Below are positions 29,247 to 48,097 of a DNA stretch of 64,000 nucleotides, piece by piece. The notes beneath the pieces were generated by a model. The model was not told the DNA's origin. It was given only the letters and a program-made list of their open reading frames with translations, and did not search any database. The DNA comes from Acaryochloris sp. CCMEE 5410 (GTDB lineage: Bacteria > Cyanobacteriota > Cyanobacteriia > Thermosynechococcales > Thermosynechococcaceae): NCBI RefSeq assembly GCF_000238775.2, contig NZ_AFEJ02000001.1, forward strand, positions 4,216,001-4,280,000, read 5' to 3'. The stretch's first letter is position 1. Each line of letters opens with the position of its first letter. The position numbers were made by a program, and so were the translations under genes.

Positions 29247-29605
29247 AATGGCTTGGTAGTCGGTATTGAGAAGACGCCATAGTAAAGAGCAAAGCTGCTA
29301 TCTTCAATGGAATGGTCTAGTGTCGTGATGACACCACGCTCCAGGGTAAATTCGTCACAATAAATAAGGTGCTCTTAAAAGACATGCTGAATGAGGCTGT
29401 GCTTGGATGGTTCCTGGAAATGGTCATTCGACGTGTGGCATAGCGCATAGAGTCAAACCTATCTTCGACATTCTCAGCGTCCGTAGTGTGAAAAGACTCA
29501 GTACGCTTGGGCGTGGCAGAACGATGGAGCTTTATCTACGCACTCTGCATATTTGGCTCAGTATCGAGTGCAAACTATAATCCACAAACTTTAGGTGTCA
29601 ACACA
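29247..29605. other. Intergenic region, 359 bp
   Basis: Lies between the J-domain gene and the SDR gene, both on the plus strand. A minus-strand open stretch near 29250-29370 lacks a start codon and is not called. An in-frame extension of the SDR reading frame back to 29507 does not look like family sequence. No repeats or RNA gene seen. Confidence 0.5.
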
Positions 29606-30550
29606 ATGGCGTTTGATTTAGAAAATATCCCTTCTCAGCAAGGCAAGGTTGCCATTGTGACTGGGGCGAATACAGGCCTGGGCTATGAAACGGTGAGTTA
29701 TCTAGCGCAAAAGCACTTCAAGGTGATCATGGCTTGCCGTGATTTGGAGAAAGCGGCACAAGCCAAAGCCAAAATCAAGATGACAGTGCCGGTCGCGGAT
29801 TTAGAGATTCTCCAGATTGATTTGTCTGATTTGTCATCTGTAAGAGGGTTTGCCCAAATCTTTCGACAGAACTACAACAGCCTCGACCTTCTGATCAATA
29901 ATGCTGGAATTATGTGGCCTCCCTATGCCCTGACTGTAGATGGGTTTGAGAGCCAAATGGGAGCCAATTACTTTGGTCATTTTCTCCTGACGGCATTGCT
30001 GTTGGATCTGATGCCGAATACCTCTGAATCTCGGGTGGTGTCTCTGAGTAGCAATGCTCATCGGTTGGGGGCTGGGAAAATTAATTTTGACGATTTGCAA
30101 TCGAAACAGAACTACTCCAAAACGGGAGCCTATGCCCAGAGTAAGCTGGCCTGTTTGATGTTTGGGAATGAATTGCAGCGACGGTTAGCTCAAGCCGGTA
30201 AAAAAATTCTTTCCGTCACGGCTCACCCTGGCGTTTCCAACACAGAACTCGCCAGACATATGCCTCAATACCAGGTTCAACTTATTCAATATACGATTGG
30301 TCCGTGGCTCTGCCATGCCCCGGATCAGGCCGCCCTGCCCATTGTGATGGCGGCGCTTGACCCTGAGGCCCAAGGGGGAGAATATTTTGGCCCTCAAGGG
30401 TTTATGGAAATGAAAGGTCAGCCTGGACGGGCCACACAGTCAAACTATGCCCAAAATCTAGCTGCTGCTGCCCAGCTCTGGGATGTCTCAGAAGAATTAA
30501 CAGGGTGCACCTTTGCTATACCTCAAGTTCAAGCCGTCACAACGTCATAG
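29606..30550 (+). CDS. Short-chain dehydrogenase/reductase, 314 aa
   Basis: A classical SDR of the retinol-dehydrogenase/protochlorophyllide-reductase-like branch. Motifs present: TGANTGLGYE nucleotide-binding turn, NNAGIM, the catalytic Ser in VVSLSSNAH, and YAQSK with Tyr and Lys. The Arg in MACRDLEKA after strand 2 favours NADP(H). Substrate unknown. I start at ATG 29606 because the frame upstream has no family similarity. Its 3' end overlaps the convergent epimerase-like gene by 22 bases. Confidence 0.88.
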   Translation: MAFDLENIPSQQGKVAIVTGANTGLGYETVSYLAQKHFKVIMACRDLEKAAQAKAKIKMTVPVADLEILQIDLSDLSSVRGFAQIFRQNYNSLDLLINNAGIMWPPYALTVDGFESQMGANYFGHFLLTALLLDLMPNTSESRVVSLSSNAHRLGAGKINFDDLQSKQNYSKTGAYAQSKLACLMFGNELQRRLAQAGKKILSVTAHPGVSNTELARHMPQYQVQLIQYTIGPWLCHAPDQAALPIVMAALDPEAQGGEYFGPQGFMEMKGQPGRATQSNYAQNLAAAAQLWDVSEELTGCTFAIPQVQAVTTS

Positions 30551-31596
30551 TCAATCAACTGCTGAAACATATCGACAAGGGATGTGGCTAGGGGGCGATA
30601 AGTTAGCCCTAGCTCGCGGATGCTTTTGCTGTTATCGACGCCAAAGGGAACACCCACGTTTCTATCAATGATTTTGCGCGTCATACTGCTATCCAATAAT
30701 GGTCCCACTAGCCAAATCAATGCTTTGGGTAGAACACTTTTGGGGAAGGGATAAGCCTCGCCAAAATGAGCCCGCAAAATCTCAGCCATTTGAGGGAAAT
30801 TTGTGTTGTATCCAGAGGTGATATGGCGGCCTTGGGCATTGGGAGTAAATCCCGCAGCCAGATGCGCTTCTGCGACATCCCGAACGTCCACGACCCCCAT
30901 CTGATAGTCTGGTACGCCCATTTTCATCGTGCCATCTCCCAGCTGTTTGATCAGTGAGAAGGACTCTGAAGTAGCAAAAGGGTTAATCCCAGGCCCTAAA
31001 ACGAGGGAGGGATTGATGGTGACTAAGTTCCAGCGGTTCTGGCTCTTGGCAATTTTCCAAGCTTCTTGCTCAGCTAAGGTTTTGGAATAGGAATAGGGCT
31101 GATGGGTGAGGGAGGAGGTGGTATTCCAGTCTGCTTCAGTAAATAAATCGCCTGGAACCATTTCTAAGTCTGCACTATCGCCATAAATGGCGGCACAACT
31201 GCTGGTGACCACCACCCGCTTCACAGACTCAGTTTGATTGGCTTGTTCTAAAACATTGCGGGTGCCGAGCTGGGCTGGTTCAATCAGATCTTTTTGTGGA
31301 TTATCAACGGCAATAGTGAAAGGGGAAGCCGTGTGAAACACTACGGTACAGCCCTGCATGGCCTCGGCGTAGGATCCTAGCGTCAGTAAATCTGACTGGA
31401 AATATTGGATCTGCCCTGGAGACTGATCTGCCAAAGCATTAAGGTATTTAAGCTTCTCAGTATTGCTGGGATTGCGAACAGCTGCGTGAACGGTAAAGCC
31501 TTCTTCCAGTAAACGCTTGACGAGCCATCCGGCGACATAACCAGTCGCTCCAGTGACGAGAACGGGGGCTGACGTATCGTAGGTGGGGTTGGTCAT
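30529..31596 (-). CDS. Extended SDR (dihydroflavonol-4-reductase-like), 355 aa
   Basis: The N-terminus has the extended-SDR motif LVTGATGYVAGWLVKRLL, followed by FHTASPF, VVTSSCAAIYG and the catalytic YSYSK. This matches the dihydroflavonol reductase/cinnamoyl-CoA reductase-like subgroup, NADPH-dependent reductases of aldehydes or ketones. The true substrate in a cyanobacterium is unknown. It overlaps its convergent neighbour by 22 bases and has a 26-bp palindrome in its promoter region. Confidence 0.88.
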   Translation of the reverse strand: MTNPTYDTSAPVLVTGATGYVAGWLVKRLLEEGFTVHAAVRNPSNTEKLKYLNALADQSPGQIQYFQSDLLTLGSYAEAMQGCTVVFHTASPFTIAVDNPQKDLIEPAQLGTRNVLEQANQTESVKRVVVTSSCAAIYGDSADLEMVPGDLFTEADWNTTSSLTHQPYSYSKTLAEQEAWKIAKSQNRWNLVTINPSLVLGPGINPFATSESFSLIKQLGDGTMKMGVPDYQMGVVDVRDVAEAHLAAGFTPNAQGRHITSGYNTNFPQMAEILRAHFGEAYPFPKSVLPKALIWLVGPLLDSSMTRKIIDRNVGVPFGVDNSKSIRELGLTYRPLATSLVDMFQQLIDYDVVTA

Positions 31597-32564: not shown

Positions 32565-32690
32565 AACTAACTCCTTGCAAAGTGATCTGCATCTAGCCTG
32601 ACCGCTCTGTTGGATAGCCGCAATAACCTCATAGGTCATTGAATTCATGATCGGTCTCGGTTGAGAATAGAGAGCAGAGTGGAGATATGC

Positions 32691-33527
32691 ATGACCTCTG
32701 CCGACCCACAAAACTTTCAACATATTTGTCGCCATTGGCGTAAATTTAGGAAGCTATCGCAACTGGATTTAGCCCTGGCAGCTAATGTGTCACAACGCCA
32801 TGTCAGTTGGCTGGAAACCGGGCGTAGTCATCCTAGCCGTGCCATGATAGAGCGACTTTCAGAGGCCATGAATATCCCCTTACGGGAACGGAATGTGCTG
32901 TTACAAGCCGCTGGGTATGCAACAACCTATCGCGAAACGGCCTTGGATCAGCCTGTGATGAGGCCAGTGCTAGACGCACTGAATCATGTCTTGCAATACC
33001 ATGCCCCCTTGCCAGCTATCGTGGTTGATCGCGGCTGGAACGTTAAAAAAGCCAATCAGGCTGCAGAACTACTGCTCAGCCTTGGGGGAGACCTGCCAGC
33101 ATTTCAGAAAAATGTAGGGGCAGATGAGCCTCTCAATTTAGCCTTGCTAACGCTTCATCCCGAGGGGCTCAGGCAATATATAACCAATTGGGATCAGGTT
33201 TGGCCTTCGATCATCCGCCGACTGAGGCGTGAATCTCTGGCCTCGGGGGATCGAGCTCTGCAAGAGCAATTTGCCCAATATATCGAATTAGCTGGTCCAG
33301 AAGGTTATAGCGAGCCAGATAGTGCTAGTTTATTGCCCGTTTTACCCTTGGAACTGGATATTAAGGGGTTGGAACTGAGTCTATTCTCGATTATTGCGAC
33401 CTTTGGTACACCCCAGGACATTACGACTGATGAACTTCGGATTGAAACCTTTTATCCTACCGATGCTAAAACCGAACAGTTTTTTCGGAACCATCATTTT
33501 GAGAAGTCCGTTGTAGGTGAAATGTAG
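32691..33527 (+). CDS. XRE-family regulator with MmyB-like ligand domain, 278 aa
   Basis: Residues 10-70 are a helix-turn-helix (RKLSQLDLALAANVSQRHVS, ending SWLETGRSHPS), typical of the XRE/MmyB type. The rest is a PAS-like MmyB ligand-binding domain (PAIVVDRGWNVKKANQAA, then FGTPQDITTDELRIETFYP). Such regulators often act on a divergent neighbour, here the small membrane protein at 32271-32564. The ATG at 32691 follows GTGGAG. Ligand unknown. Confidence 0.88.
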   Translation: MTSADPQNFQHICRHWRKFRKLSQLDLALAANVSQRHVSWLETGRSHPSRAMIERLSEAMNIPLRERNVLLQAAGYATTYRETALDQPVMRPVLDALNHVLQYHAPLPAIVVDRGWNVKKANQAAELLLSLGGDLPAFQKNVGADEPLNLALLTLHPEGLRQYITNWDQVWPSIIRRLRRESLASGDRALQEQFAQYIELAGPEGYSEPDSASLLPVLPLELDIKGLELSLFSIIATFGTPQDITTDELRIETFYPTDAKTEQFFRNHHFEKSVVGEM

Positions 33528-33677: not shown

Positions 33678-34034
33678 TTATTCCCCCACAATTGTGAGCT
33701 TTGCCCATTGTTGAGGGTCGTTGCTGGTAAATAGCTGTAGAGCATCACCTGCAAAATCTGGATGGGGTGTCCCCAGTTCATAGATGGAATTTTTGGTGGT
33801 TACATACACCCGTCCTGCTTTGGTTAGGCATCCTTTGATGGGAGAAGATTTCAGCTTTTTCCCAGCCGGATACTTGGAGTGGTTAAAGATTTGCCCCTGA
33901 ATAACGACTTGATTGCCGATATCAACGCAAAGCCACGATTCGATAATCGGTAGGCTGAGAGATGCAGTATTGGATGCAGTTAAAGTGGGTTGAGAATGTT
34001 CTAAATAATAGTCCGTGATGTCATCAGCAATCAT
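33678..34034 (-). CDS. Hypothetical protein, 118 aa
   Basis: The protein begins MIADDITDYYLEHS and contains strand-rich segments (GRVYVTTKNSIYELG), without signal peptide or membrane segment. Similar short proteins with the TKNSIYELG motif are found in cyanobacteria, but I know no function. I chose ATG 34034; a TTG two codons upstream is also in frame. It is isolated, with 270 bases to the next gene. Confidence 0.6.
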   Translation of the reverse strand: MIADDITDYYLEHSQPTLTASNTASLSLPIIESWLCVDIGNQVVIQGQIFNHSKYPAGKKLKSSPIKGCLTKAGRVYVTTKNSIYELGTPHPDFAGDALQLFTSNDPQQWAKLTIVGE

Positions 34035-34310
34035 GATCAAGCTTGGTAGGGTTGATGCTCAGTTAGGGGAGGAGTTCTGTGGGCAAAGAACAACACAGCA
34101 GTGATGGGTTCAGATGTCTCTAGTCTAAGCAGAATCTCCCGCAGAAAGTACAGTGAGAATGCGGAAATCTATGCTATCTGATAGGCGGAATTGGAGTAGA
34201 CTGCCTAGTTAAATATTCGGAGTGATTGCGATAGCATTGACAAAATTGTTGCTGTTATTCGGCGTAGCTGTACTGAAGCTAGTAACGTTGGCTTTGATGA
34301 GTCTTTTAAA

Positions 34311-35204
34311 TTAATTTTTGGTGTCGTAGAGAGTCTTCCAGTCTGGAAAAGTCATGCCTAATAGATTGCTGAGATCTGCAGTTTGTTTGAGTTGAATGGG
34401 CCGGAGAAATTGAATTGCTTCCTGTAGGTCTTCAGCATCCTTGTCTCGGTCCACTTCCCGAACTGCTAATTTGAGGCCAGAAGAGCGAATCTTTTTGGGG
34501 AGTAATGAGGCCAGTTGGTTGAAAGGCCATGTGTATCGTAGACGAAATAAAGCACTCTTTTGGTAGAACTGCTTTGGCGTTGCATGAAATTTTTCCGAGA
34601 GATTCTCAGGCGCAAAGGAGGCATCGACCCCCAGCCACTCAAACGTCTTGGTCATGCAGGCTTCCGCATTATTACAAAGTTCTTCAAAGGTGAGAAACAA
34701 AAATTGATCGGGCGAAAAATATTGAAAGTAATGGTTGAGCTGCTTGGGATAATTACTAACATCTTGATAAAGCGGATTATTCTGTACGGCTGTTAGTAGG
34801 CTTTGATTTTCGTTCCCTTGACGAGTTTCATGCCAGTAGTGACTCACCGTGCGCTCAATGGGGTCCCTCATGATGTAAATAAAGCGAGCTTCAGGGTTAA
34901 ACTGGGCGATGCGTTCAGCCACATCCGTAATATGAGGCTCTTTGGCATACAGCGTACTCGATTCACCCAGAATTGTTGCCTCACCAGCACCCTCAAAGAG
35001 GCGGAGATATTTCTCTTCATTTCCCCACAGGCCGAGCTTTTTCATATTGGGCCAGTTCAACTGTTGGGGATGCACAAAATAGCAGGGCTCTTTGGGCTCG
35101 CACATGAAAATAGACGGGTGATTATTGAGATATTGGTGCAAGGATGAGGTGCCCGATTTCATCGCACCAATAATAAACAGATTCGGTTTTCTTAAATCGC
35201 TCAT
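34311..35204 (-). CDS. Sulfotransferase domain protein, 297 aa
   Basis: The 5'-phosphosulfate-binding loop FIIGAMKSGTSSL (residues 10-22) and the 3'-phosphate-binding block YIMRDPIERTVSHYWH (near residue 110) mark a PAPS-dependent sulfotransferase. The family adds sulfate to hydroxyl or amino groups of carbohydrates, lipids or small molecules. It is soluble. It is the third gene on the strand after lipoxygenase and P450 (87 bases after the P450 stop), so an oxylipin hydroxyl is a plausible acceptor, though not proven. Confidence 0.9.
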   Translation of the reverse strand: MSDLRKPNLFIIGAMKSGTSSLHQYLNNHPSIFMCEPKEPCYFVHPQQLNWPNMKKLGLWGNEEKYLRLFEGAGEATILGESSTLYAKEPHITDVAERIAQFNPEARFIYIMRDPIERTVSHYWHETRQGNENQSLLTAVQNNPLYQDVSNYPKQLNHYFQYFSPDQFLFLTFEELCNNAEACMTKTFEWLGVDASFAPENLSEKFHATPKQFYQKSALFRLRYTWPFNQLASLLPKKIRSSGLKLAVREVDRDKDAEDLQEAIQFLRPIQLKQTADLSNLLGMTFPDWKTLYDTKN

Positions 35205-35291
35205 GGTATTAATGTGGAGGCCGCCTTAGCTTCACTTCTTTCTACAGTAGCAGTTGGTTCTAGTCAATCTGCACGGTGAAAAATGGAAGGT

Positions 35292-36824
35292 TTATGACCG
35301 CAAGATAAATCGAGCTTTTAGCTGTCTAGGCACAGAGACGCCAAAATAAAATTCTTGGTCATGGGGCTGATCGCCAAATTCGATCTCTACTTTTGCTAAC
35401 AAGGTGGCTAAGGTTAAGCGCATAAAGAATTTGGCAAAATCTTGACCAATGCAAGCTCGATCACCTCGACCAAACGGGAAAAAGTAATCGCTACCATAGT
35501 CATTTTCGGCCAACGTTTTGGCATCCCAGCGTTCTGGCTGAAAAGAGTCTGAATCGTGCCAGTGGGGTGAGAGGCGATGGAGAAACCAGTTATTGATAAA
35601 AATTTGGGTATTCGCGGGAATCTCGTGACCCGCTAGATGGGTAGCGCCAACCGTATTGCGCGTAAAAAAGGGCACGGGCGGCCAGAGTCGCAGGGACTCT
35701 CGCAATACTTGCTCCACTGGGAGACAATTTTCCAGTCGTTCCAAGGTGAGGGGTTCCTTGAATAACCCGTCCAAATCGTGCTGAAGCGCCGATAGGGCTT
35801 GAGGATGCTGAAACAGCAAATGAAGTGTAGAGGTAATACCGCTGGGTGCAGAAACCGCTCCGCCTGGGTAGACCCCAGCGCAGAAGTTTCGCATTTGTTC
35901 AGGGGTAAAGGCAGAGCCTCCTCGTTTCAGAACCCAATCCAGGAGCGAACCACCAGCAGGATCGGCTTGAGTGGTTTCTAGCACTTCGCTAAAGCGCTGA
36001 AACCATTGGCGACTTGCTTCTTTATAGTGCTTACCTTTTGGTTCTTCCGGAATCATCCAGCTGGCAATGGAGGATCGGTTCATGCGATCAGTGCCTGTTG
36101 CACAGAGGGTATTGAACTGTTCAAAGACCTGATCGGGAAAGACTTGGCCTACGGTTGCCAGGGAAAAACTGTCGAAGACTAGTTTCTGAATGACCTCATA
36201 AGCTGGGAGCATTTCGGTCTCAGACTGTTTGACCAATGCCTCCGCCCGACTTTCGATAAAAACCTGCAAGGGCTGAATTTGAGTCTCCATCCACTCGCGG
36301 AAGTAGGTCATATTAAATGGATTATTTTTAACCAGATGCTGCCATTTCGATCCAGCAGTTTTGGCCACAAAAGGATGACTATCCGTGAGGATGGGGCGAA
36401 GGGCTTTGCGGGGGATATCTTTATAAAAATCAGCTTGGTTGGCCCGATGTTCATGGGAATGTGGGTTAGTCTGCTGCTGGGCCGTAAGCAGGACTTGTTG
36501 GATTAAATCGGGGTCGTTGAGAACTAAGGATGGCCGGGCCAAAATCCAGAATAAGGACAAGCCACCATATTGCTGCCCCTGTTCTCCTAGCACCTGCCAA
36601 ATCGGTTTCCCTTGCTGCAGAACCCAGACATTACCAATGGGGAAGAGAGGCTGAGGGCCTGGAATCTGGCTGAATGCTTGGGTCTGTTTGCTAAAGATCC
36701 GCTGAAATAAGGCCTGGGAATAGGACTGTAACTTTGACTCTACCCACTGTCGGGGTTTGGCCTCTATCTGTTTGAGGGTATTGTGCAGTCCTGTAGTGAG
36801 GGATCCGGCTGATAGACCTGTCAT
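35292..36824 (-). CDS. Cytochrome P450 without canonical O2-activating acid, 510 aa
   Basis: The heme-binding loop FGRGDRACIG places the axial Cys at 458. ESLR at 376-379 is the ExxR motif and FQPERW the PERF-like motif. In the I helix, where monooxygenases have AGx(D/E)TT, this protein reads GGAVSAP (321-327): the acid is Val324 and the Thr is Ser325. Such loss is typical of P450s that rearrange hydroperoxides or use peroxide (CYP74, CYP8, CYP152). With a lipoxygenase gene 113 bases upstream, a hydroperoxide-processing role is likely. No membrane anchor is obvious. Confidence 0.92.
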   Translation of the reverse strand: MTGLSAGSLTTGLHNTLKQIEAKPRQWVESKLQSYSQALFQRIFSKQTQAFSQIPGPQPLFPIGNVWVLQQGKPIWQVLGEQGQQYGGLSLFWILARPSLVLNDPDLIQQVLLTAQQQTNPHSHEHRANQADFYKDIPRKALRPILTDSHPFVAKTAGSKWQHLVKNNPFNMTYFREWMETQIQPLQVFIESRAEALVKQSETEMLPAYEVIQKLVFDSFSLATVGQVFPDQVFEQFNTLCATGTDRMNRSSIASWMIPEEPKGKHYKEASRQWFQRFSEVLETTQADPAGGSLLDWVLKRGGSAFTPEQMRNFCAGVYPGGAVSAPSGITSTLHLLFQHPQALSALQHDLDGLFKEPLTLERLENCLPVEQVLRESLRLWPPVPFFTRNTVGATHLAGHEIPANTQIFINNWFLHRLSPHWHDSDSFQPERWDAKTLAENDYGSDYFFPFGRGDRACIGQDFAKFFMRLTLATLLAKVEIEFGDQPHDQEFYFGVSVPRQLKARFILRS

Positions 36825-36922
36825 GGGTGTATATCCTCTTATGCTGAATAGTTGCGGTTGCCACGAGGTAATCTGCCAAGGCCCATCGCGTTGGCAAGTG
36901 CATTTTTGATGGCGAGTAGACT

Positions 36923-36952
36923 TTAGATATTGATGCTCTAGATATTGATGCT
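36923..36952 (-). repeat. Tandem 15-bp duplication across the lipoxygenase stop
   Basis: The last codons of the lipoxygenase (AGC ATC AAT ATC TAG) are repeated immediately afterward as AGC ATC AAT ATC TAA, in frame. Confidence 0.85.
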
Positions 36953-38950
36953 CTGGGGAATGTTGGACGGCTGTAGGTAGCGGTAAGGGTAGGGGCGATG
37001 GCGGTTTCGTTCTGCGATCGCAGTTTCGATATCCAGTAAATTGGCCTGAAAACGATGCAGAGGCGCGAGTACACGCTGATCAGAGAACCAGGACTTTTCG
37101 TATTGACCGAGTTGCGTATGGTAAATCTGCCCGAGCAAATACGTTAACTCCAGCTGATTTAAGGCCTGGTGTAGGGGGGGCAGTTGGTTGAGCCGATCCT
37201 GGGAAGACATCGCTGTCGTGTTGGGAGCGGGCTGGTAGCCTGCTAATGGCATCCCTGGGGTATAGACCATGATGTCGCCCTGGGGAAAATTCACAGCGGC
37301 ATGTTGGGCACTCGCGGTAAAAATGATCAGCGTGAGGGCTTGAATTAAGTAGGCCTGGGTTCGCAATTGTCCATCCTCACCAAAATCTGGGACTCGGCCA
37401 CCCTCTTCAGCCTGTAGCTCCTGCGCCCAAGCCTGAAGGGCCGCATCTTTTTGCACGGAGTCATCTGTTGGGTAGTACAAGCTCACATAATCAGTGACCC
37501 AAGTTTCGATGGCCTGCCAAATCAGCAAGGCATCGTCTCGATAGGGATGGATGGGCAGTGCCGCTGCATTATCCAAACCCAGTTGCTGCAATTGTTGGGG
37601 CAGCATGGCCTGATTAAAGGAATAGCTTTGTAATCCCTTTACGGCTAAGACCCTGGCACAGTCGATGGTGGCAGCCAAGACCGTATCCACTCCACCTTCT
37701 GGCGCCATTAACATGCTTTGAGCGCCGTTGTTGATACTTAAGGTGCCTTCAAAGTGAGGCCGAAGCAGGACACTCACAGGATGAGACGGCAGTAATTGGC
37801 GATGGGTGGCAATTACAAACGGGCTAATAAACAGATGGGTTCGACCCAAATGGGTGACGGCCTCGTGGTAATTGCTATCGGCAACTTGCACGCAGGTCTT
37901 CGCCATGTCCCAGGCCTGTTTTTGGTCTGGATTCTGATCCGTAGGCGGCGTCAGAATCGGTGTTTCAGGCCCTGGAGATTGGCGGCATTGAATAGCGATG
38001 GGCTGGAGATTTCGGCAGGGGGCATCAGCTGAGGGAACAGCAAAAAGGGCGATGGGAGCCGAAATATATTTTTGCTGATCGGGGTAGTTACCATTGATCG
38101 CACCGGCCAAAATAGCATAATCGGCGATGTATAGTCGGCCCTCGGTGACCGCTGTTTGCAGAGAATCGTCTGCTCCCATCACGGCCTGATAATGCTGATT
38201 CGTAACCGGGAAATGAGAGCAGAGGGTGTCTCCCGATAAATGACGGACTTGTTGCAGCAAAACAGGATTAGGACCGGCTACTCGCAAGTAAGCAAAAAAC
38301 TCATCTTCCTGAAAGTATTCGGCACACTCCGGTAACGGAATTGTCGCGAATTGCTGATTAAAGTCTGCTATTGAAGTAGGACGATCTTGTCTACATTCAT
38401 GGGCTAGATGTTCTTTTAAGTTCAAGTGCAGAATCCGTAATAGATCATGCTCTAAATGGGCGGCTAAACTGTGCAGCAAGCTTTCTGAATCAGCGAACGA
38501 CAACCGTAAACCGTTAATCAACGTCGTTGGTGCTGTTTTCAGCAGATGCCAGATGAGACGCCACCGCACCTCGGGGCGTTGAGTCAAGATATTCACCAAG
38601 GTTTTGCGAATGAGACGGGAAATATGTTGCTCTGCTTCATGCTCATGGTGGTGATTGTGGGCGCCAACAATGGCATTCGAGAGAATCTTGAACATGGTAC
38701 GGAACAACTTTGACCACCAAGTCCGAGAGGGGAGTTCCTCTTGGGGTAAGCGATCCACCATGGCTACAGGGGCAATGTGACTGTAGTTGTATTGATATTT
38801 GCGTCGAGCTGCTTTTAGCGCTGCGGGAATCGGCTCCGGCTGGGTCGGATTAGGACGAGTGGAGGTCAGAGTGGGTTGATGTTTGTCCTGTTGAATTTCA
38901 ACAGGCGTGATTTGGGTCGGCAGGCCAGTGAGGGAGTACTGATGCGTCAT
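36938..38950 (-). CDS. Lipoxygenase, 670 aa
   Basis: The protein matches the lipoxygenase signature exactly: His362-X4-His367-X4-His372-X17-His390-X8-His399. The later HAAVN supplies His550 and Asn554, and the chain ends in Ile670, whose carboxylate is the fifth iron ligand. Lipoxygenases insert O2 into polyunsaturated fatty acids to make hydroperoxides. There is no PLAT domain or signal peptide; residues 1-50 are polar and probably disordered. The residue at the Coffa position appears to be Ala (LMAPEGG), which would favour S stereochemistry, but that alignment is uncertain. It leads a likely operon with P450 and sulfotransferase. Confidence 0.95.
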   Translation of the reverse strand: MTHQYSLTGLPTQITPVEIQQDKHQPTLTSTRPNPTQPEPIPAALKAARRKYQYNYSHIAPVAMVDRLPQEELPSRTWWSKLFRTMFKILSNAIVGAHNHHHEHEAEQHISRLIRKTLVNILTQRPEVRWRLIWHLLKTAPTTLINGLRLSFADSESLLHSLAAHLEHDLLRILHLNLKEHLAHECRQDRPTSIADFNQQFATIPLPECAEYFQEDEFFAYLRVAGPNPVLLQQVRHLSGDTLCSHFPVTNQHYQAVMGADDSLQTAVTEGRLYIADYAILAGAINGNYPDQQKYISAPIALFAVPSADAPCRNLQPIAIQCRQSPGPETPILTPPTDQNPDQKQAWDMAKTCVQVADSNYHEAVTHLGRTHLFISPFVIATHRQLLPSHPVSVLLRPHFEGTLSINNGAQSMLMAPEGGVDTVLAATIDCARVLAVKGLQSYSFNQAMLPQQLQQLGLDNAAALPIHPYRDDALLIWQAIETWVTDYVSLYYPTDDSVQKDAALQAWAQELQAEEGGRVPDFGEDGQLRTQAYLIQALTLIIFTASAQHAAVNFPQGDIMVYTPGMPLAGYQPAPNTTAMSSQDRLNQLPPLHQALNQLELTYLLGQIYHTQLGQYEKSWFSDQRVLAPLHRFQANLLDIETAIAERNRHRPYPYRYLQPSNIPQSINI

Positions 38951-39632
38951 TGTTGATCCGGTCTATGTGTGTTCTGACGTAAATGGCAACTGCCTGTGAT
39001 CAGGGGTGTAGGGATAGTCCGTAGCAGCTACCGATTCAGCTCTAGTGTTCCCAAGTCTGGCCTAGATTTTACTGTCGAAATAGCTTGAAGTCTGGGCAAG
39101 CTTGTACTATCAAGATTGATAACTATTTAGTCCCTAAATGAGAAATGTTTGTATTAAAACCGATGTCAATTGAATTGTGATAAATCGAGTTATAGACTTA
39201 TTCTTAATGGTTAGCTAAAAGTGAGGCTACTGAGTGCTGCTGATGCTTTATCAAACTTAATATTGCTAGGTATTTATTGATTTAGGCTGATATCGCTGTT
39301 TAAATTGAGAGAGATGCAAATAATAGACTATTCAAAATTAAAATATCTAATTTCCCGTCTTTATCAATATTTTTTCGGGTTTATGATAGCTCGATTAAAA
39401 CGCAGTCTTAGATGGCTGATCTAAATATTACAATTACAACTATGCCTCATTAATTTGGTGTCTATCCATCGTGATCCTTGTTTGCTGAATAGTCTTGAAA
39501 CCATAACAAAGAAATTTCTGAGAACTTGCAAGTTTTAGGTGAGTTTGGGGAACATCTAGATTGAAGCAATTGCTTGTATTTTTCTTTTAAGAAAAGTTAG
39601 TTATTCTATTTCCTGGCTTGGAGCAATAATTG
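38951..39632. other. A+T-rich divergent promoter region, 682 bp
   Basis: The region separates the lipoxygenase operon (-) from the signalling operon (+). It is A/T-rich from about 39100 on, with no coding frame. Two small palindromes stand close to the kinase start: AAGCAATTGCTT near 39564 and a 7-bp stem TTTTCTT/AAGAAAA at 39580-39595. The kinase SD (GGAG) is at 39620-39623. Confidence 0.6.
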
Positions 39633-42600
39633 ATGTTGGGGACAATCGCGGACTGTCGTCTGGTTGAGCATCTCTATGAGAGTGAGAATTCTATTGTGTA
39701 TCGGGGCCAACGACAGGCTGAGCCGCATCAGGTCATTCTGAAAGTCTTGAAAGAAGATTACCCAACTGCTTCAGAACTGACTCGGTATCGTCAAGAATAT
39801 GAGATTACCCGCAGCCTCGAACTCGAAGGGGTGATCAAAGTGTTGGGGTTAGAGCCCTATCAACGGACCCTAGCTATTATTTTGGAAGATGTTGAAGGGG
39901 TGTCCCTGAAGTCCTATTACCAGGGAAAGGTGGTGCCATTGGTGGAGTTTCTACCCTTAGCCATCAGTATTACCGAAGTTTTAGGTCGGATTCATAGTCA
40001 TAATGTCATCCATAAAGATTTGAATCCTAGCAACATCATTTTGAATCCAGACACGCATCAGTTACGGATCATTGATTTTGGCATTTCTACCCAACTCAGC
40101 CGAGAAACAACCATCCTTAAAAACCCTCAAGTTCTCGAAGGAACGCTGCCCTATATTGCGCCTGAACAGACGGGGCGCATGAATCGCTCTTTGGATTATC
40201 GGACGGACTTTTATGCATTGGGGGTGATGTTTTATGAGCTACTGACGGGACAGTTACCTTTTACGGCTGAGGATCCGCTGAAGTTAGTCCATTGTCACTT
40301 AGCGCAACAGCCCACCCCTCCCCATCAAGTCAATCTCGACATTCCTAGGGTGTTATCTGACTTGGTGATGATCTTAACGTCGAAAACCGCCGAAGAACGG
40401 TATCAGAGTGCATTCGGAATCCAAGCTGATTTGGCGACCTGTTGGCAACAACTGAAGCAAACAGGGGAAATTCGAGCCTTTCCGCTTCGGACCCAGGACC
40501 ATTCGGATAAGTTTCATATTCCGCAAAAGCTCTATGGGCGGTCCCAAGAAATTGCGACCTTATTAACGGCCTTTGAGCGGGTCAATCACCCCCAAAATCC
40601 AACCAAAGGGAGTGAAATGATGCTGGTGGCGGGGTATTCCGGGATTGGCAAATCGGCTCTAGTCGCAGAAGTCCATAAACCGATTACCGAAAAACGAGGA
40701 TATTTTATCTCGGGGAAATACGATCAATTTCAGCGAGATGTGCCTTACTCGGCAGTCATCAGTGCGTTTCAAGATTTAGTCAAGCAACTCCTGACTGAAA
40801 GTGAAACCCAATTACTCCAATGGCGACGACAATTGCTGGCTGCTTTGGGACCGAATGGTCAAGTCATCATTGATGTCATCCCTGAAATTGAGTTGATTAC
40901 AGGGTCTCAGCCTCCAGTGCCTGAATTGGGACCTGCAGAAGCTTTGAACCGATTTAACCTGGTATTTCAAAATTTTATTCGGGTGTTTTGTACCCCAGCC
41001 CATCCCTTAGTGTTGTTCTTAGATGATTTGCAATGGGCTGATTCCGCCAGCTTAAAGTTGATCAAGTTGATGATGACGGATCGGCAAATGCGATCGCTGT
41101 TGCTCATCGGTGCTTACCGTGATAACGAAGTCGATGCGACCCATCCCTTGATGACCTTGGTGAAGCAGCTCTGGCAAGAAAAAGTCAACATCAATACGAT
41201 TACGCTACAGCCTCTCTCTCAGCTGCATTTGTGCCAGCTGATTGCGGATACTGTTCACCATAATTTAGAGACCACCCTCTCCTTAGCGGAGTTAGTCCTC
41301 AATAAAACGGAAGGAAATCCCTTTTTCGTCAATGAGTTTCTGAAGAATCTCTATGGGGAAGAGCTGTTGCAGTTTAATCCCCGCGCTCAACAGTGGGAAT
41401 GGGATATGGCCCAAATTCAGTCTCAGGATCTCACGGATAACGTGATTGAACTGTTGATTAGCAAACTGAAAAAATTACCCCCTGCTACCCAAGATGTTTT
41501 GCGGTTGGCTGCTTGTGTGGGGGCTGAATTTGATCTGCAGACCCTGAGCCTGATTCGTCAGCAATCCCATGCCGAGGTATTTTCGGATTTGAAAGTCGCG
41601 ATTCAGCTTGGGTTGATCTTTGCCCAGTCTGAGCTCAATGATGCGTTAGTGATTACGGATTTCCGCTTTGGTCACGATCGGATTCAACAAGCCGCTTATG
41701 CGTTAATTGATACCGATAGCCGTTCTGCAGTGCACTTAAGAATTGGCCGTTTGTTATGGCATAACGTGGAAACGGAACAACTGGCAGAGCGTATTTTTGA
41801 GGTGGTGGACCATCTCAATCAGGCCCTCCTCCTGATTACGGATCTAGACGAACAAGGTCAGGTCGCTCAACTTAACCTCAAAGCGGGCCAGAAAGCAAAA
41901 TCAGCGACGGCTTACGGTGCTGCCGTCCGGTATCTGCAAACGGGATTGAGTTTAGTGGGAGAGACGGGATGGCAAAATGCCTATCCCTTAACCCTCCAGC
42001 TCCATCAAGAAGCAGTTGAAGCGGCGTATCTACACCAAGATTATCCCCAGCAAGAACAGTTAACGACTGTGGTGCTGCAGCAGGCCAGAACCGTGTTGGA
42101 TATGGTGAAAGTCTACCGGGTCAAGATTTTGGCCCGTTCTGCTCAGAATCGCCATCTAGAGGCAACGGATATTGGCTTTGAGATTTTGGAGCGGCTAGGG
42201 GTCACCTTTGTAGACCCCACCCCTGAGAACTTGCAGCAAGAGTTGGAGCAAACCAAGCAGCTCTGTGGGGACCGCTCGATCCAAGATTTGATCCGTTTGT
42301 CTCCTATGACTGCAGAGGACAAACTAGCAGCCATGCAGATTCTCTCGGATATCTTGTCCTCTGGCTATCAAGCCTCTTTTGAACGCTTTATTCTCAGTAA
42401 TCTGAAGCAAATTCACTTATCTCTCACCTATGGCAATACGGCACCTTCCGCGTTTGCCTACGACTGCTATGGCATTACCCTCTGTGGGGTCGTCGGAGAT
42501 ATTGAAGCAGGCTATCAGTTTGGCCGGTTGGCCTTACAGGTGGTTGATAAGTTTCAGGCGAAAAAGACCAAGAGTCGGGTGGTCTTTGTGTTCAATGCGT

Positions 42601-44105
42601 TTGTGCGCCACTGGACAGATCCCCTGAATTTGACGATTCCCGATTTGCATGAAGGGTATCAAATTGGTTTAGAAACCGGGGATTTAGAATATGCCAGCTA
42701 TTCCCTCTGTTGGGAGGCGATGCATTCTTTATTAACGGGGGAGCAACTGTCAGATTTGGCGCTGCGAATGCTGGAGTTTCAGCAAGCCATTGCCGGTTTT
42801 CAACAGGCCGCTTGCCTCCTGTATCTCCAAATTTTTCAACAGGTCACTGCTCATTTAACTGAGCCTAACTTGGATCCGACCCGCTTGTCTGGGACGTACC
42901 TACAAGAACGACAGGTCCTTGTGGACAGTGCGGATAATAAGCTAGCCTTAGCATTCTTTTATACCTTGAAAGCTCAGGTGGCTTACCTGTTGGGACAGCC
43001 TAAGATGGCTTTAGAGAGTACCCAACAAGCGGCGGCCTATGTGGACGGGATGACGGCTGCAGCGACGGTTGCCAGCCTCAATTTTTACGATTCTCTGGCC
43101 CGGTTAGCTCTCTATGATGGGCTACCCCCTGTAGAGCAAGAGCAGATGTTGGCAGTCGTTGCTACGAATCAAGACCAACTCCAGAAATGGGCTAACCATG
43201 CACCTGCCAACCATCAGCATAAATATTGCTTAGTAGAAGCAGAGCGGTATCGCGTCTTGCGGCAGCTACCGCAGGCGGGGGAGGCTTATGATCGAGCGAT
43301 TGCCCTGGCACAATCCCACCATTACCCTAATGAAGCCGCCTTAGCGAATGAGCTGGCAGCGAAGTGTTTTCTGCAGCAAGAGCGAGATAACTTTGCTCGG
43401 GTGTATCTGAATGAAGCTTATTACGGGTACTACTGCTGGGGGGCCACGGCTAAATTACGTCAATTAGAAGCGTCCTACCCCTACCTCCTGGCCCAGCAGG
43501 TAATCCATTCCCAACAGGGCACTATTCCCACTACACCTCTAGCCGCGGCAGCATCAACGAGTACCATTCGCACGGGGCAAGCTCTGGATCTGAATACGGT
43601 CTTGCAGGCTTCACAGGCGATTGCAGGGGAAATTGTCCTCGATAAGCTATTGATGACCCTGATCAAAATCCTTGTGCGCAATGCAGGGGCCCAAGTAGGG
43701 CATTTAATTCTGAATGTGGAAGGCAGCCTTGTTATTGAAGCCTCGTTTAATTCTCAATCTGACCAGGGTCAAGTGCTGCAGTCTCAGCCCATTGCGGATC
43801 AGCTCCCCGATAGTATCATCAACTATGTGCTCCGAACCCAGGAGAGCGTTGTCCTTCGACAGGCTACCCAAGACAGTAACTTTGGCTTGGATACTTATAT
43901 CACGACCCATCAGCCCAAATCGATTCTTTGTGCGCCGCTCCTGAATCAAGGACAGTTGAGCGGGATTCTTTATTTAGAAAATAATCTGACGACGGGAGCC
44001 TTTACGGCGGATCGCCTAGAAATTTTGCAGCTGCTGTCAGGACAGGCTGCGATCGCAATCGACAATGCCCTGCCTGTATACCAACCTGGAAGAGAAAGTC
44101 GATGA
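39633..44105 (+). CDS. Ser/Thr kinase - AAA ATPase - GAF signalling protein (5' part of a split hybrid kinase)
   Basis: A 1490-residue multidomain protein. Residues 1-270 are a Hanks-type kinase (VIHKDLNPSN loop, IIDFGIS). Around 336 a Walker A (GYSGIGKSAL) and later Walker B (LVLFLDDLQWAD) mark a large STAND/AAA ATPase, followed by about 700 residues of TPR-like helices. Residues about 1317-1478 form a GAF domain. Proteins of this type normally continue directly into a histidine kinase; here the frame ends 20 residues after a tandem CCTG repeat (44069-44076) and the kinase continues in the +1 frame. Confidence 0.9.
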   Translation: MLGTIADCRLVEHLYESENSIVYRGQRQAEPHQVILKVLKEDYPTASELTRYRQEYEITRSLELEGVIKVLGLEPYQRTLAIILEDVEGVSLKSYYQGKVVPLVEFLPLAISITEVLGRIHSHNVIHKDLNPSNIILNPDTHQLRIIDFGISTQLSRETTILKNPQVLEGTLPYIAPEQTGRMNRSLDYRTDFYALGVMFYELLTGQLPFTAEDPLKLVHCHLAQQPTPPHQVNLDIPRVLSDLVMILTSKTAEERYQSAFGIQADLATCWQQLKQTGEIRAFPLRTQDHSDKFHIPQKLYGRSQEIATLLTAFERVNHPQNPTKGSEMMLVAGYSGIGKSALVAEVHKPITEKRGYFISGKYDQFQRDVPYSAVISAFQDLVKQLLTESETQLLQWRRQLLAALGPNGQVIIDVIPEIELITGSQPPVPELGPAEALNRFNLVFQNFIRVFCTPAHPLVLFLDDLQWADSASLKLIKLMMTDRQMRSLLLIGAYRDNEVDATHPLMTLVKQLWQEKVNINTITLQPLSQLHLCQLIADTVHHNLETTLSLAELVLNKTEGNPFFVNEFLKNLYGEELLQFNPRAQQWEWDMAQIQSQDLTDNVIELLISKLKKLPPATQDVLRLAACVGAEFDLQTLSLIRQQSHAEVFSDLKVAIQLGLIFAQSELNDALVITDFRFGHDRIQQAAYALIDTDSRSAVHLRIGRLLWHNVETEQLAERIFEVVDHLNQALLLITDLDEQGQVAQLNLKAGQKAKSATAYGAAVRYLQTGLSLVGETGWQNAYPLTLQLHQEAVEAAYLHQDYPQQEQLTTVVLQQARTVLDMVKVYRVKILARSAQNRHLEATDIGFEILERLGVTFVDPTPENLQQELEQTKQLCGDRSIQDLIRLSPMTAEDKLAAMQILSDILSSGYQASFERFILSNLKQIHLSLTYGNTAPSAFAYDCYGITLCGVVGDIEAGYQFGRLALQVVDKFQAKKTKSRVVFVFNAFVRHWTDPLNLTIPDLHEGYQIGLETGDLEYASYSLCWEAMHSLLTGEQLSDLALRMLEFQQAIAGFQQAACLLYLQIFQQVTAHLTEPNLDPTRLSGTYLQERQVLVDSADNKLALAFFYTLKAQVAYLLGQPKMALESTQQAAAYVDGMTAAATVASLNFYDSLARLALYDGLPPVEQEQMLAVVATNQDQLQKWANHAPANHQHKYCLVEAERYRVLRQLPQAGEAYDRAIALAQSHHYPNEAALANELAAKCFLQQERDNFARVYLNEAYYGYYCWGATAKLRQLEASYPYLLAQQVIHSQQGTIPTTPLAAAASTSTIRTGQALDLNTVLQASQAIAGEIVLDKLLMTLIKILVRNAGAQVGHLILNVEGSLVIEASFNSQSDQGQVLQSQPIADQLPDSIINYVLRTQESVVLRQATQDSNFGLDTYITTHQPKSILCAPLLNQGQLSGILYLENNLTTGAFTADRLEILQLLSGQAAIAIDNALPVYQPGRESR

Positions 44106-45147
44106 ACGGACTCAGGAACTCTCCCAAGCCCTAGAAGATTTACAACTCGCTCAAGAAGGACTGATTCAGTCAGAAAAAATGGCGGCATTGGGACAATTGA
44201 TCGCGGGCGTGGCTCATGAAATTAATACTCCCTTGGGGGCGATTCGGTCTTCGATTGAATATATTGCTAATTTTCTCGATCAACATCTGACCACCCTGCC
44301 GCAATTTTTTCGGGAGTTACCCATCGAGCAAGCCGAGCAATTTCAGTCCCTGTTGTTACGCGCCTTAACCCCTTCACCGACCCTGTCTGGTCGTGAACGA
44401 CGCCATACCCGTAAGGCAATCGCCAAGCAACTCACCGAGCAGGGGATTTTATCGGCGGAGTCCTTAGCCAGTTTATTGCTGGATTTAGGGATTTGTGATG
44501 ATCTCCATGATCTCCTTCCTCTCCTGTCTGAACCCAGGAGTGAACCCTTATTAAAGATGGTGCGCCAGTTTACGCGGGTGCGTGAAAGTACACGGGATAT
44601 TGCGACCGCTAGCGATCGTTCTGCCAAAATTGTGTTTGCTCTGAAAACTTATGCCCGCTATGACCATAGCGGAGACAAGATTGAAGCCAATATCACGGAC
44701 GGCATTGATGCAGTCTTAACCCTCTATCACAACCAAATCAAACATGGAGTGACGGTCCATCGCTCTTTTGCCGAGATTCCCCCCATTGCTTGCTATTTTG
44801 ATGAACTGAATCAGGTGTGGACCAACCTCCTGCATAATGCCCTCCAGGCCATGGACCATCAAGGCACCCTTGATATTGATGTCAGTCAACAGGCAGATCA
44901 AGTCTGCGTCAAGATTACCGATAGCGGTCCTGGCGTTCCCCTGGAGTTAAAAGAGAAAATTTTTGAGCCCTTTTTCACCACCAAACCTCCTGGTGAAGGC
45001 AGTGGTTTAGGGCTTGACATTGTTCGCAAAATAATTGACAAGCATCAGGGTACCCTAAGCTTGGACTCCGTTCCAGGCCGCACGACGTTTAGTGTGACCT
45101 TGCCCATGTCTGTCATGCCGACCCCTCAACCGACTCCTGCCCTATGA
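44065..45147 (+). CDS. Histidine kinase (3' part of the split hybrid kinase), 360 aa
   Basis: The frame opens within the end of the preceding gene (ATG at 44065) and reads [16 protein letters not shown], a coiled coil, then the H box [10 protein letters not shown] with His51, an N box ([11 protein letters not shown]) and G boxes ([22 protein letters not shown]). Removing one of the two tandem CCTG units would fuse it in frame to the GAF domain. It may be expressed by reinitiation from the overlapping ATG, or be a casualty of the frameshift. Its stop overlaps the next start (ATGA). Confidence 0.88.
44069..44076 (+). repeat. Tandem CCTG duplication breaking the kinase frame
   Basis: CCTGCCTG lies exactly at the junction. 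With a single unit the sequence would read [12 protein letters not shown], the usual GAF-to-kinase linker; with two, the frame shifts by +1. Confidence 0.8.
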
Positions 45148-45539
45148 CCAAACTGGCCATTCTTTGTGTTGATGATGAAGTCATTATTCTCAATAGTCTT
45201 CTACGACAGTTGCAAACTGCGTTTGACGATCACTATATCTATGAAACGGCTGAAAATGCCAGCGAGGCATTGGAGCTGATTGAAGAACTGCAGGAAGAAA
45301 ATACAGATCTGTTAGTGATTGTGTCGGATTGGCTTATGCCTGGGGCAAAAGGAGATGAATTTCTGATTCAAGTCCACCAGAAGTTCCCAGGAGTCGTCAA
45401 GATTTTGCTGACGGGCCAAGCTGATGAAGCAGCGGTAGAACGAGCGCAGTCCCAAGCCAATCTGTTTAATTGTTTACGCAAACCCTGGAATGAAAGTGAT
45501 CTGATCCAATGTATTCAATCAGCCTTAGGAACAGTGTAA
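45144..45539 (+). CDS. Single-domain response regulator, 131 aa
   Basis: A lone receiver domain: acidic pair in LCVDDEVI, phospho-acceptor Asp in VSDWLMPG, switch Thr in LLTGQADE, and Lys in LRKPW. It has no output domain, so it probably relays phosphate or binds a partner. Its ATG overlaps the stop of the histidine kinase by four bases, implying translational coupling. It closely resembles the receiver of the next protein, so the two are likely duplicates. Confidence 0.95.
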   Translation: MTKLAILCVDDEVIILNSLLRQLQTAFDDHYIYETAENASEALELIEELQEENTDLLVIVSDWLMPGAKGDEFLIQVHQKFPGVVKILLTGQADEAAVERAQSQANLFNCLRKPWNESDLIQCIQSALGTV

Positions 45540-45554
45540 AGACTAAGCAGGACG

Positions 45555-46829
45555 ATGCCTAAACCCATAATTGTTTGTGTGGATGATGAAATCGCAGTCC
45601 TAGATAGCCTCAGACGTGAGCTATCTGAAGTGTTTGAAGATACCTGCGAAATAGAAACTGCCATGGGAGGCAAGGATGCCATGGCCCTGGTCCATGACCT
45701 GATCGCAGATGAATGCGATTTATCGGTCATCATTGCTGATTATCTGATGCCGGATATCAAAGGAGACGCGGTCTTACAACAAGTCCATCAGCTCTCTCCC
45801 CAAACTTTAACCATCATGTTGACGGGGCAAGCGAATGTTGATGGTATTTCCAATGCCATCAATACGGCCCAGCTGTATCACTACATTGCCAAACCCTGGC
45901 AACCTGAAGCGTTACAGTTAACGGTGCGAGAGGCCCTCAATCGCTATCAGCTCTCTAAAAAAATTAAAGACTATCAACAAACCCTCGAACGTAAAGTTGA
46001 AGAGCGCACCCAGAAATTATCCGAAACATTGCATACCCTGCAAACCACCCAGGCAGAACTGATTCAGGCGGAAAAAATGGCTGCTCTAGGCCAGTTAGTG
46101 GCGGGCGTGGCCCATGAAATTAATACCCCGGTGGGCAATGCCCTGTTAGCTGCCTCGGTATTGAATAATGAAACCAGTTCTTTAACTCAAGCCTTTGAGC
46201 AAGGAGCGTTAAAACGATCGGCCTTAGTGGGCTATTTGCAGACTGCTCAAGAGAGTAGTGATCTGATCTTGCAAAATCTGCATGGGGCGGCGGCCCTCAT
46301 TCAAAACTTCAAGCAAGTTGCGGTGGATCAAACCAGCCATGAGCAACGAGAGTTTCAGATCATCCCGTATATTGAGAGTGTATTGACCAATTTGGAACCG
46401 AAATTAAAACAGACTCGCCATACGGTTACGGTTTCAGGGGATGCTGCTCTAAAAACCACTAGTTATCCAGGAGCACTGTCACAAGTTGTGACTAACTTTG
46501 TCATGAATTCCCTTATGCATGCCTACCAACCTGGAGAGGCAGGGCAATTAAAATTTGAAGTGACTCAACAACAAGATCGGATTATTCTCGAATATGCCGA
46601 TGATGGTTGTGGCATTCCTGCAGAACATCAGCCTAAGATTTATGAGCCTTTTTTTACCACGGGTCGAGATCGCGGCGGCAGTGGTTTAGGTCTGCATATT
46701 GTTCACAATCTGGTCACCCAGTCCCTTGGAGGAACCGTGTCTTGCCAGAGTGAGGTTTCCGTAGGAACCCAGTTTATGCTGCAGTTACCCTTGACCTTAA
46801 GGAAGGGGGAGGCTCATGCCCGAGGATAA
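45555..46829 (+). CDS. Receiver-histidine kinase, 424 aa
   Basis: Residues 1-130 form a receiver (VCVDDEIA, IADYLMPD with the Asp, MLTGQAN, AKPW). A coiled coil (LERKVEERTQKLSE) leads to the H box AHEINTPVGN with His187 and the catalytic domain (NFVMNSLMHA, YADDGCGIP, GSGLGLHIV). It resembles the kinase encoded at 44065-45147. Without a sensor domain, its input is presumably phosphorylation of its own receiver. The 3' end overlaps the next gene by 14 bases. Confidence 0.95.
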   Translation: MPKPIIVCVDDEIAVLDSLRRELSEVFEDTCEIETAMGGKDAMALVHDLIADECDLSVIIADYLMPDIKGDAVLQQVHQLSPQTLTIMLTGQANVDGISNAINTAQLYHYIAKPWQPEALQLTVREALNRYQLSKKIKDYQQTLERKVEERTQKLSETLHTLQTTQAELIQAEKMAALGQLVAGVAHEINTPVGNALLAASVLNNETSSLTQAFEQGALKRSALVGYLQTAQESSDLILQNLHGAAALIQNFKQVAVDQTSHEQREFQIIPYIESVLTNLEPKLKQTRHTVTVSGDAALKTTSYPGALSQVVTNFVMNSLMHAYQPGEAGQLKFEVTQQQDRIILEYADDGCGIPAEHQPKIYEPFFTTGRDRGGSGLGLHIVHNLVTQSLGGTVSCQSEVSVGTQFMLQLPLTLRKGEAHARG

Positions 46830-48078: not shown

Positions 48079-48097
48079 GTTTTTCAGCAGGAGAAGA

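Follow-up and report, generated by a model that had tools for sequence, protein, structure and literature searches.

Lipoxygenase genes repeatedly paired with P450 genes in cyanobacteria, and a candidate oxylipin cassette in Acaryochloris

What might three neighbouring genes of Acaryochloris sp. CCMEE 5410 make together? They lie on the minus strand of a 64,000-nucleotide stretch of its 8.09-Mb genome (contig NZ_AFEJ02000001.1, positions 4,216,001 to 4,280,000; this whole stretch is the window, and coordinates below are positions in it). Read in the direction of transcription, they encode a lipoxygenase (LOX), a cytochrome P450 and a sulfotransferase of the type that uses 3'-phosphoadenosine 5'-phosphosulfate (PAPS); 113 bases separate the first gene from the second, and 87 the second from the third. 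An earlier note on this DNA had described these three same-strand genes, whose open reading frames (ORFs) we recovered at exactly the same positions, and had proposed that they form a chain from a fatty acid hydroperoxide to a sulfated oxylipin. Our analysis favors a two-enzyme oxylipin cassette, with a probability of roughly 0.7, in which LOX would make a hydroperoxide and the adjacent P450 would convert it.

Conservation and recurrence of the gene pair

We compared 29 genomes of the family. Five hold LOX and a P450 of the window group (group A), and in all five the two genes are side by side: the window genome, G003, G005, G004 and G008 (G004 and G005 are 87% and G008 is 76% complete). Compared with the window, the four relatives had 59–81% identical LOX and 52–83% identical P450 proteins, and the nearest named relative found was an Acaryochloris metagenome-assembled genome with an 81% identical LOX. 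The gap between the two genes, 113 bp in the window (36825..36937, minus strand), was 108 bp in G003, 110 bp in G005, 199 bp in G004 and 8 bp in G008.

The pair was also found elsewhere in the phylum. When 386 cyanobacterial genomes were searched with the window P450 (E≤1e-35; no more than three candidates were scored per genome, and further copies may be missed), such a P450 was present in four of them, including the window genome, and each adjoined a LOX gene. In G303 and G170, LOX was directly upstream of P450 on the same strand, at 398 and 37 bp, respectively; in G047, P450 precedes a diverged LOX (Pfam E 2.8e-10) by 45 bp. Further P450s of this clade occurred in G594, G002 and G500, all with LOX, the G594 protein being 80% identical to that of G047. 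A scan of genome contigs yielded two LOX loci, one being that of the G003 relative and the other, L007, from Anabaena azotica; the latter had no P450 match on the 21 kb covered.

Could the two genes nevertheless be chance neighbors with no joint pathway? Cyanobacterial genomes carry several P450s each, and when LOX rather than P450 genes were used as the starting point, most lacked such a neighbor. A phylum search with PF00305 (E≤1e-20, no more than two LOX scored per genome) yielded at least 62 LOX in 53 of the 386 genomes, the window's own LOX not being among the 62. Except for one in G408, all of these loci were examined, and 48 of 61 had no adjacent P450. However, a P450 on the same strand was present within 468 bp of LOX at the remaining 13 loci, whereas only three of 229 ORFs of at least 150 amino acids located more than 1.5 kb from LOX were P450s, and two of these three belonged to LOX-P450 sets themselves, one as the second of two tandem copies and the other as a split gene. 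Conservation of the pair in G004 and G008, where the proteins are only 52–61% identical to those of the window, also argues against a fortuitous arrangement, which we consider highly improbable. Several features of this census affect its reading. Six loci had less than 1.5 kb on one side of LOX, and the profile for LOX-neighbor P450s was partly seeded with P450s already beside LOX genes, which may favor such finds. A group-D protein had no PDB match and was not recognised by Pfam, and was assigned as a P450 by similarity to P0001 (itself over the Pfam cut-off) and by its ExxR and Cys motifs; without group D the count was 10 of 61. In group E, six proteins (L213, L218, two of L221, L224 and L231) were over the Pfam cut-off, and those of L217, L223 and L227 were outside the Pfam scan. 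Overall, adjacency of LOX and P450 is conserved and recurrent, more so than expected by chance.

Phylogenetic analysis revealed that the partners differ while the pairing recurs. In the P450 tree, a clade composed of groups A, B and C (SH-aLRT support 100) contained 13 rows, of which 12 were LOX neighbors and one was an orphan; with a partial copy from G511, which was outside the tree, 12 of 14 were beside LOX, one of the 12 being a second tandem copy. The other LOX-neighbor P450s clustered as groups D and E together with a G006 gene (support 92, midpoint root). Besides the partial G511 copy, the tree left out one truncated unlinked row and two rows of locus L104 (a fragment next to LOX, and a P450 of ordinary type truncated where the locus ends). 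Its depth is unsure because the tool warned of long branches meeting, and its starred branches force two changes only. In the LOX tree, the partners of groups A, B and C each formed one group, and these groups were distant from each other. The clade around the window LOX had 15 rows (five paired with group A, eight with group E and two unlinked; support 96); the group-E P450s, although beside the LOX closest to that of the window, belong to another P450 clade. Thus, a single P450 clade has partners in three or more LOX lineages, and neighboring LOX lineages are paired with different P450 clades.

Predicted chemistry of the two enzymes

The window LOX (36938..38950, minus strand, 670 amino acids) scored 221.6 bits on PF00305 (cut-off 23.6, E 2.6e-65), with the Pfam domain, the catalytic domain alone, at residues 199–654, and its best solved relative was 4RPE (E 1.8e-116). 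The note had described it as intact with all five iron ligands. Indeed, when aligned to the 15-LOX-type chains 4RPE and 4G32, it had H362 and H367 (37850..37867), H550 and N554 (37289..37303) and the C-terminal I670 (36941..36943) in register with positions which we take to be the His-His-His-Asn-Ile iron ligands of the family. We expect the enzyme to form a hydroperoxide by dioxygenating a polyunsaturated fatty acid of 18 (perhaps 20) carbons; polyunsaturated substrates are plausible because the window genome has ten fatty acid desaturase matches over the cut-off. Since Ala410 occupies what is presumably the "Coffa" site, the hydroperoxide is probably S-configured.

The P450 (35292..36824, minus strand, 510 amino acids) scored 156.5 bits on the Pfam p450 family (cut-off 22.8, E 1.3e-45); by the tree and the linkage data, it belongs to the clade whose members mostly adjoin LOX genes. 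It keeps ExxR (E376) and the heme ligand Cys458 (35451..35453) in an uninterrupted FPFGRGDRACIG loop. Its I-helix is different. Most other P450s in our comparison read AGxET at this site, whereas the window protein reads GGAVS, within GGAVSAPS at residues 321–328 (35841..35864), and V324-S325 stand where a conventional monooxygenase has its acid-alcohol pair, leaving no acid at the position of O2 activation. We aligned 81 P450s in addition to that of the window: 25 from LOX neighborhoods (22 directly beside LOX, two second tandem copies in L184 and L221, and one fragment in L104 that is beside a transposase-like ORF) and 56 others. The acid was missing in all 25 as well as in the window protein and present in 54 of the 56. 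In place of the pair, the LOX-neighbor P450s carried V/I-S, R-N, F-S, A-G, Q-G or L-G; group A had V-S or I-S, and group B had Arg at the acid and Asn at the alcohol position. Both acid-less proteins among the 56, from G511 and G613, were group-B-like. Because the rows are related, these counts are not independent, and at the level of lineages they correspond to two P450 clades. Replacement of AGxET by GGAVS bears out, at the level of sequence, the note's view that this P450 has features of hydroperoxide-using enzymes.

Most likely, this P450 would isomerise, dehydrate or cleave the LOX hydroperoxide, as do epoxy-alcohol synthases (EAS), allene oxide synthases (AOS) and hydroperoxide lyases (HPL), respectively, and would use it as the sole oxidant, with neither O2 nor a redox partner.

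Two other kinds of P450 chemistry were considered. In the first, the enzyme would, despite its unusual I-helix, be a conventional monooxygenase driven by O2 and NADPH, hydroxylating either a LOX product or some unrelated compound. The canonical heme loop and ExxR fit this possibility, as do the nearest solved sequences, which among the matches listed were monooxygenases such as CYP97A3, CYP46A1 and CYP3A. Yet loss of the acid in every LOX-neighbor P450 and in that of the window, compared with two of 56 others, is difficult to reconcile with it, and no ferredoxin or reductase was recognised among the window neighbors scanned with Pfam, though a general ferredoxin could serve cyanobacterial P450s. 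On balance, we regard a monooxygenase as unlikely. The second possibility is a peroxygenase of the CYP152 kind, which would use H2O2 to hydroxylate fatty acids or LOX-derived hydroxy acids. CYP152 enzymes likewise have no acid-alcohol pair, and the Arg of group B at the acid position would suit them; in addition, one group-E P450 weakly matched fatty acid peroxygenases (E 8e-5 to 5e-4). However, the same match list contained CYP74A2 (E 0.0022, ranked under 31 other P450 sequences) and unrelated P450s at lower E values. Moreover, the window group has no Arg at these positions, linkage to LOX in several lineages calls for no H2O2 chemistry, and the best fold matches, among those listed, were BM3 and CYP97. 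A CYP152-like activity is accordingly quite unlikely in our estimate.

Hydroperoxide conversion by the P450 remains our preferred reading, and several observations weigh against it. Loss of the I-helix acid by itself does not prove hydroperoxide use, and the comparison P450s had been retrieved by queries similar to the window or group-B proteins and are not a random sample. The group-B-like P450s of G511 (partial) and G613 had no LOX within 4.5–8 kb on either side (14–15 kb in total), and the 48 LOX loci with no P450 neighbor also count here. The structural model of the P450 was of moderate quality (pLDDT 68.4), and its closest folds (BM3 and CYP97, Z 29–31), like its closest sequences, were those of monooxygenases. 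Finally, a scan for promoters and terminators gave no more hits than shuffled sequences (6 versus a mean of 7.9, and 5 versus 6.1).

The proposed scheme resembles the plant and animal cascades in which a LOX hydroperoxide is passed to a P450 of the CYP74 clan (AOS, HPL, EAS and DES). According to excerpts of one paper, CYP74-clan enzymes need neither O2 nor redox partners, their I-helix differs from that of monooxygenases, and CYP74s carry an additional nine-residue motif in the heme-binding domain (PMC10813956). The window P450 shares an I-helix unlike that of monooxygenases, with no acid-alcohol pair, although its motif differs from the AOS sequence quoted in the part of PMC13049297 that we consulted. 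We did not file it as CYP74 because the heme-domain insertion is missing, its heme loop being uninterrupted; it also differs in being bacterial, in lying beside a LOX gene and in having BM3 and CYP97 as best folds. No CYP74 was found among the best 60 of 280 PDB sequences matched by the window P450 or the best 60 of 417 matched by the profile, which by itself decides nothing; nor does the absence of CYP74 from the best 50 rows of the fold list, which held BM3/CYP102-type, CYP97, CYP170 and similar chains. In a search of plasmids, four haloarchaeal P450s were found at 24–27% identity.

Other known systems are similar in part. Fungal DOX-CYP fusions, PGIS and thromboxane synthase (TXS) combine a dioxygenase with a self-sufficient P450 partner; as described in the excerpted text, plant AOS and PGIS have Asn in SRS4, TXS has a nonpolar residue there, and PGIS and TXS are self-sufficient (PMC13049297). 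By analogy, the window P450 may share this behavior. These systems differ from the window pair in having a heme dioxygenase instead of an iron LOX and in being fused or eukaryotic. In cyanobacteria, a dioxygenase is coupled to a hydroperoxide-using heme enzyme in catalase-related systems, such as the catalase-LOX of Acaryochloris marina and the 10S-DOX and catalase-related lyase of Nostoc punctiforme (excerpts of PMC11719350, PMC10813956, PMC13049297 and PMC8124189), whereas the second enzyme in the window is a P450, encoded by a separate gene and belonging to another protein family. From the parts of these sources that we saw, coupling of LOX to a heme enzyme is known in plants, corals and cyanobacteria (the catalase type), and fusion of a heme dioxygenase to P450 in fungi. 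Titles and abstract beginnings that we searched, a set with most subscription papers outside it, contained no description of a cyanobacterial LOX-P450 gene pair, and lipoxygenase and oxylipin do not occur in the main text of a paper on cyanobacterial P450s (PMC7014017).

One pair offers a particularly direct experiment. The LOX of G170 matched CspLOX2 of Cyanothece PCC 8801 (PDB 5MED), a bacterial mini-LOX, over its full length (1288 bits); 37 bp downstream of its gene lies a P450 gene from the clade that includes the window P450. The major product of CspLOX2 is 11R-HPODE according to the part of PMC5437038 consulted, and the term P450 is absent from the main text of that paper. A P450 beside a CspLOX2-type gene could be tested at once, as the LOX product is already known. 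The window LOX, in contrast, is only about 40% identical to CspLOX2 and belongs to a different LOX clade. For most bacterial lipoxygenases we know of no assigned next step, and P450s that lack the O2-activating acid and adjoin 13 of 61 cyanobacterial LOX loci are direct, testable candidates for it. If the reading is correct, the pair would represent a prokaryotic equivalent of the LOX-CYP74 cascades of plants and the DOX-CYP cascades of fungi, derived from other P450 clades.

The sulfotransferase

The third gene (34311..35204, minus strand, 297 amino acids) encodes a PAPS-type sulfotransferase, as the note had stated: it scored 77.6 bits on Sulfotransfer_3 (cut-off 27, E 2.1e-21) and carries KSGTSSL (residues 16–22) and RDPIERTVSHY (residues 113–123), which we take to be the PAPS-binding motifs. 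Does it complete a three-step pathway to a sulfated oxylipin? Such a pathway would extend the two-enzyme reading and does not exclude it. The gene is on the same strand as P450, only 87 bp away (35205..35291), and epoxy-alcohols or hydroxy acids, which the P450 might produce, would as a matter of general chemistry present a hydroxyl group for sulfation.

The distribution of the gene suggests otherwise. A sulfotransferase orthologue (86% identical) was found only in G003 among the 28 other family genomes and is thus present in two of the five genomes with the pair. It was not beside P450 in G005 or G008, where other sequence is located downstream, or in the 521 bp that precede the contig end in G004, and these three incompletely sequenced genomes had no close orthologue elsewhere. 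In G003, 171 bp of sequence separate the end of P450 from one contig end, and 142 bp separate the start of the sulfotransferase from another. The two contig ends match each other over 17 bp in inverted orientation and both have TACTGTA, whereas the window has a single TACTGTA that is read straight through; on account of this duplication and the inverted ends, we infer that the order LOX-P450-sulfotransferase was common to both genomes and was broken in G003 by an insertion element in the equivalent of the 87-bp gap. The shared order speaks for a pathway of three steps, and an element that parts P450 from the sulfotransferase speaks against it. Judged by linkage in relatives, the refuting condition that the note had named, the pair holds up and the trio for the most part does not: the LOX-P450 pair was found in five of five genomes and the trio in two, one of them by inference across a contig break.

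Structural comparison also pointed away from an oxylipin acceptor. The sulfotransferase model (pLDDT 79.8) had the bacterial chain 3RNL as its best fold match (Z 26.5), followed by heparan sulfate 3-O- and N-sulfotransferases (Z 21–24); the curacin and olefin synthase domains, which act on acyl chains, were at Z 15–16, tyrosylprotein sulfotransferases at about 13 and SULTs at 10.6–12.5. The 3RNL chain and the heparan sulfate enzymes were also nearest among solved sequences; the latter are eukaryotic and act on glycans. These matches name no substrate, but if anything they make a lipid acceptor less likely.

The first two steps of the chain proposed in the note are well supported, because the linkage recurs and the I-helix acid is missing in the window P450 and its 25 LOX-linked counterparts; for sulfation, the evidence is adjacency in two close genomes. 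We demoted the sulfated oxylipin from its place as the main reading because the sulfotransferase is missing at the G005 and G008 loci and in the 521 bp of G004, lacks a close orthologue in the rest of these three incomplete genomes and is nearest in fold to glycan-type enzymes. A sulfated oxylipin is possible but unlikely as the product, and the sulfotransferase appears to be a local addition, accessory to the LOX-P450 pair. It is likewise doubtful that a cyanobacterial LOX-to-P450 cascade, with non-CYP74 P450 clades that lost O2 activation and were repeatedly paired with distant LOX lineages, is capped by sulfation in Acaryochloris. If it were, the product would be a sulfated oxylipin metabolite, and a literature search at the level of listings found no bacterial example of one.

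Neighboring genes and other lipoxygenase loci

Beyond the sulfotransferase, a 120-amino-acid protein with no Pfam match (33678..34040, minus strand) has a 79% identical orthologue in L099 and adjoins the sulfotransferase both in the window and in G003; its membership in the cluster is uncertain. Two genes of short-chain dehydrogenase type (29507–31596) and an MmyB-type regulator (32661–33527) were excluded from the cluster because they were not seen in G003, where genes past the sulfotransferase and the 120-amino-acid protein match no window protein.

On the other side, a large protein-kinase-like gene, so called by eye from its translation, diverges from LOX (39630..45147, plus strand). The same divergent neighbor is kept in G003, G005 and G008 (as a 383-amino-acid ORF in G008) and is on another contig in G004. 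It is probably context outside the pathway, and its retention may be a hint of regulation, nothing more. In the window it consists of two overlapping ORFs of 1491 and 360 amino acids, compared with a single ORF of 1829–1867 amino acids in G003, G004 and G005, suggesting a frameshift or a sequence error. In the window, the LOX-P450 pair is bordered by a gene block (39630–49204), and an additional LOX was located at the far end of the orthologous block in G003 (L098, 458–2599) and G004 (L106, 11316–13328).

Additional loci related to oxylipins were observed. The window genome has a second LOX on contig C2 (L104, 8344–13180), followed by a P450-like gene into which a transposase-like ORF has come to lie, a further case of the pairing; in G006 (L109), a relative of this split gene is intact and stands beside a LOX fragment. 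Near 3.16 Mb of contig C1 of the same genome, a catalase-LOX fusion (805 amino acids), an animal-type heme peroxidase (565 amino acids) and a LOX-like protein (571 amino acids) are encoded together (L110, 6664–12838), which appears to be another oxylipin locus. In G005, a cluster (L108, 476–12658) includes a patatin-like lipase, RoxA-like and other cytochrome-c-like proteins, an Oxidored_FMN protein of the old-yellow-enzyme type and a third kind of LOX, and similar ORF starts were seen in G002 (L111). Diheme oxylipin enzymes, 10S-DOX and 7,10-diol synthase, have been described in Pseudomonas (excerpts of PMC4496055). In G500, LOX is followed by two tandem P450s (L184, 3924–8852) that are 59% and 89% identical to that of G303. 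Finally, in G217 (L207, 3768–6353), LOX forms a single 861-amino-acid protein with C2 and polyketide-cyclase-like domains.

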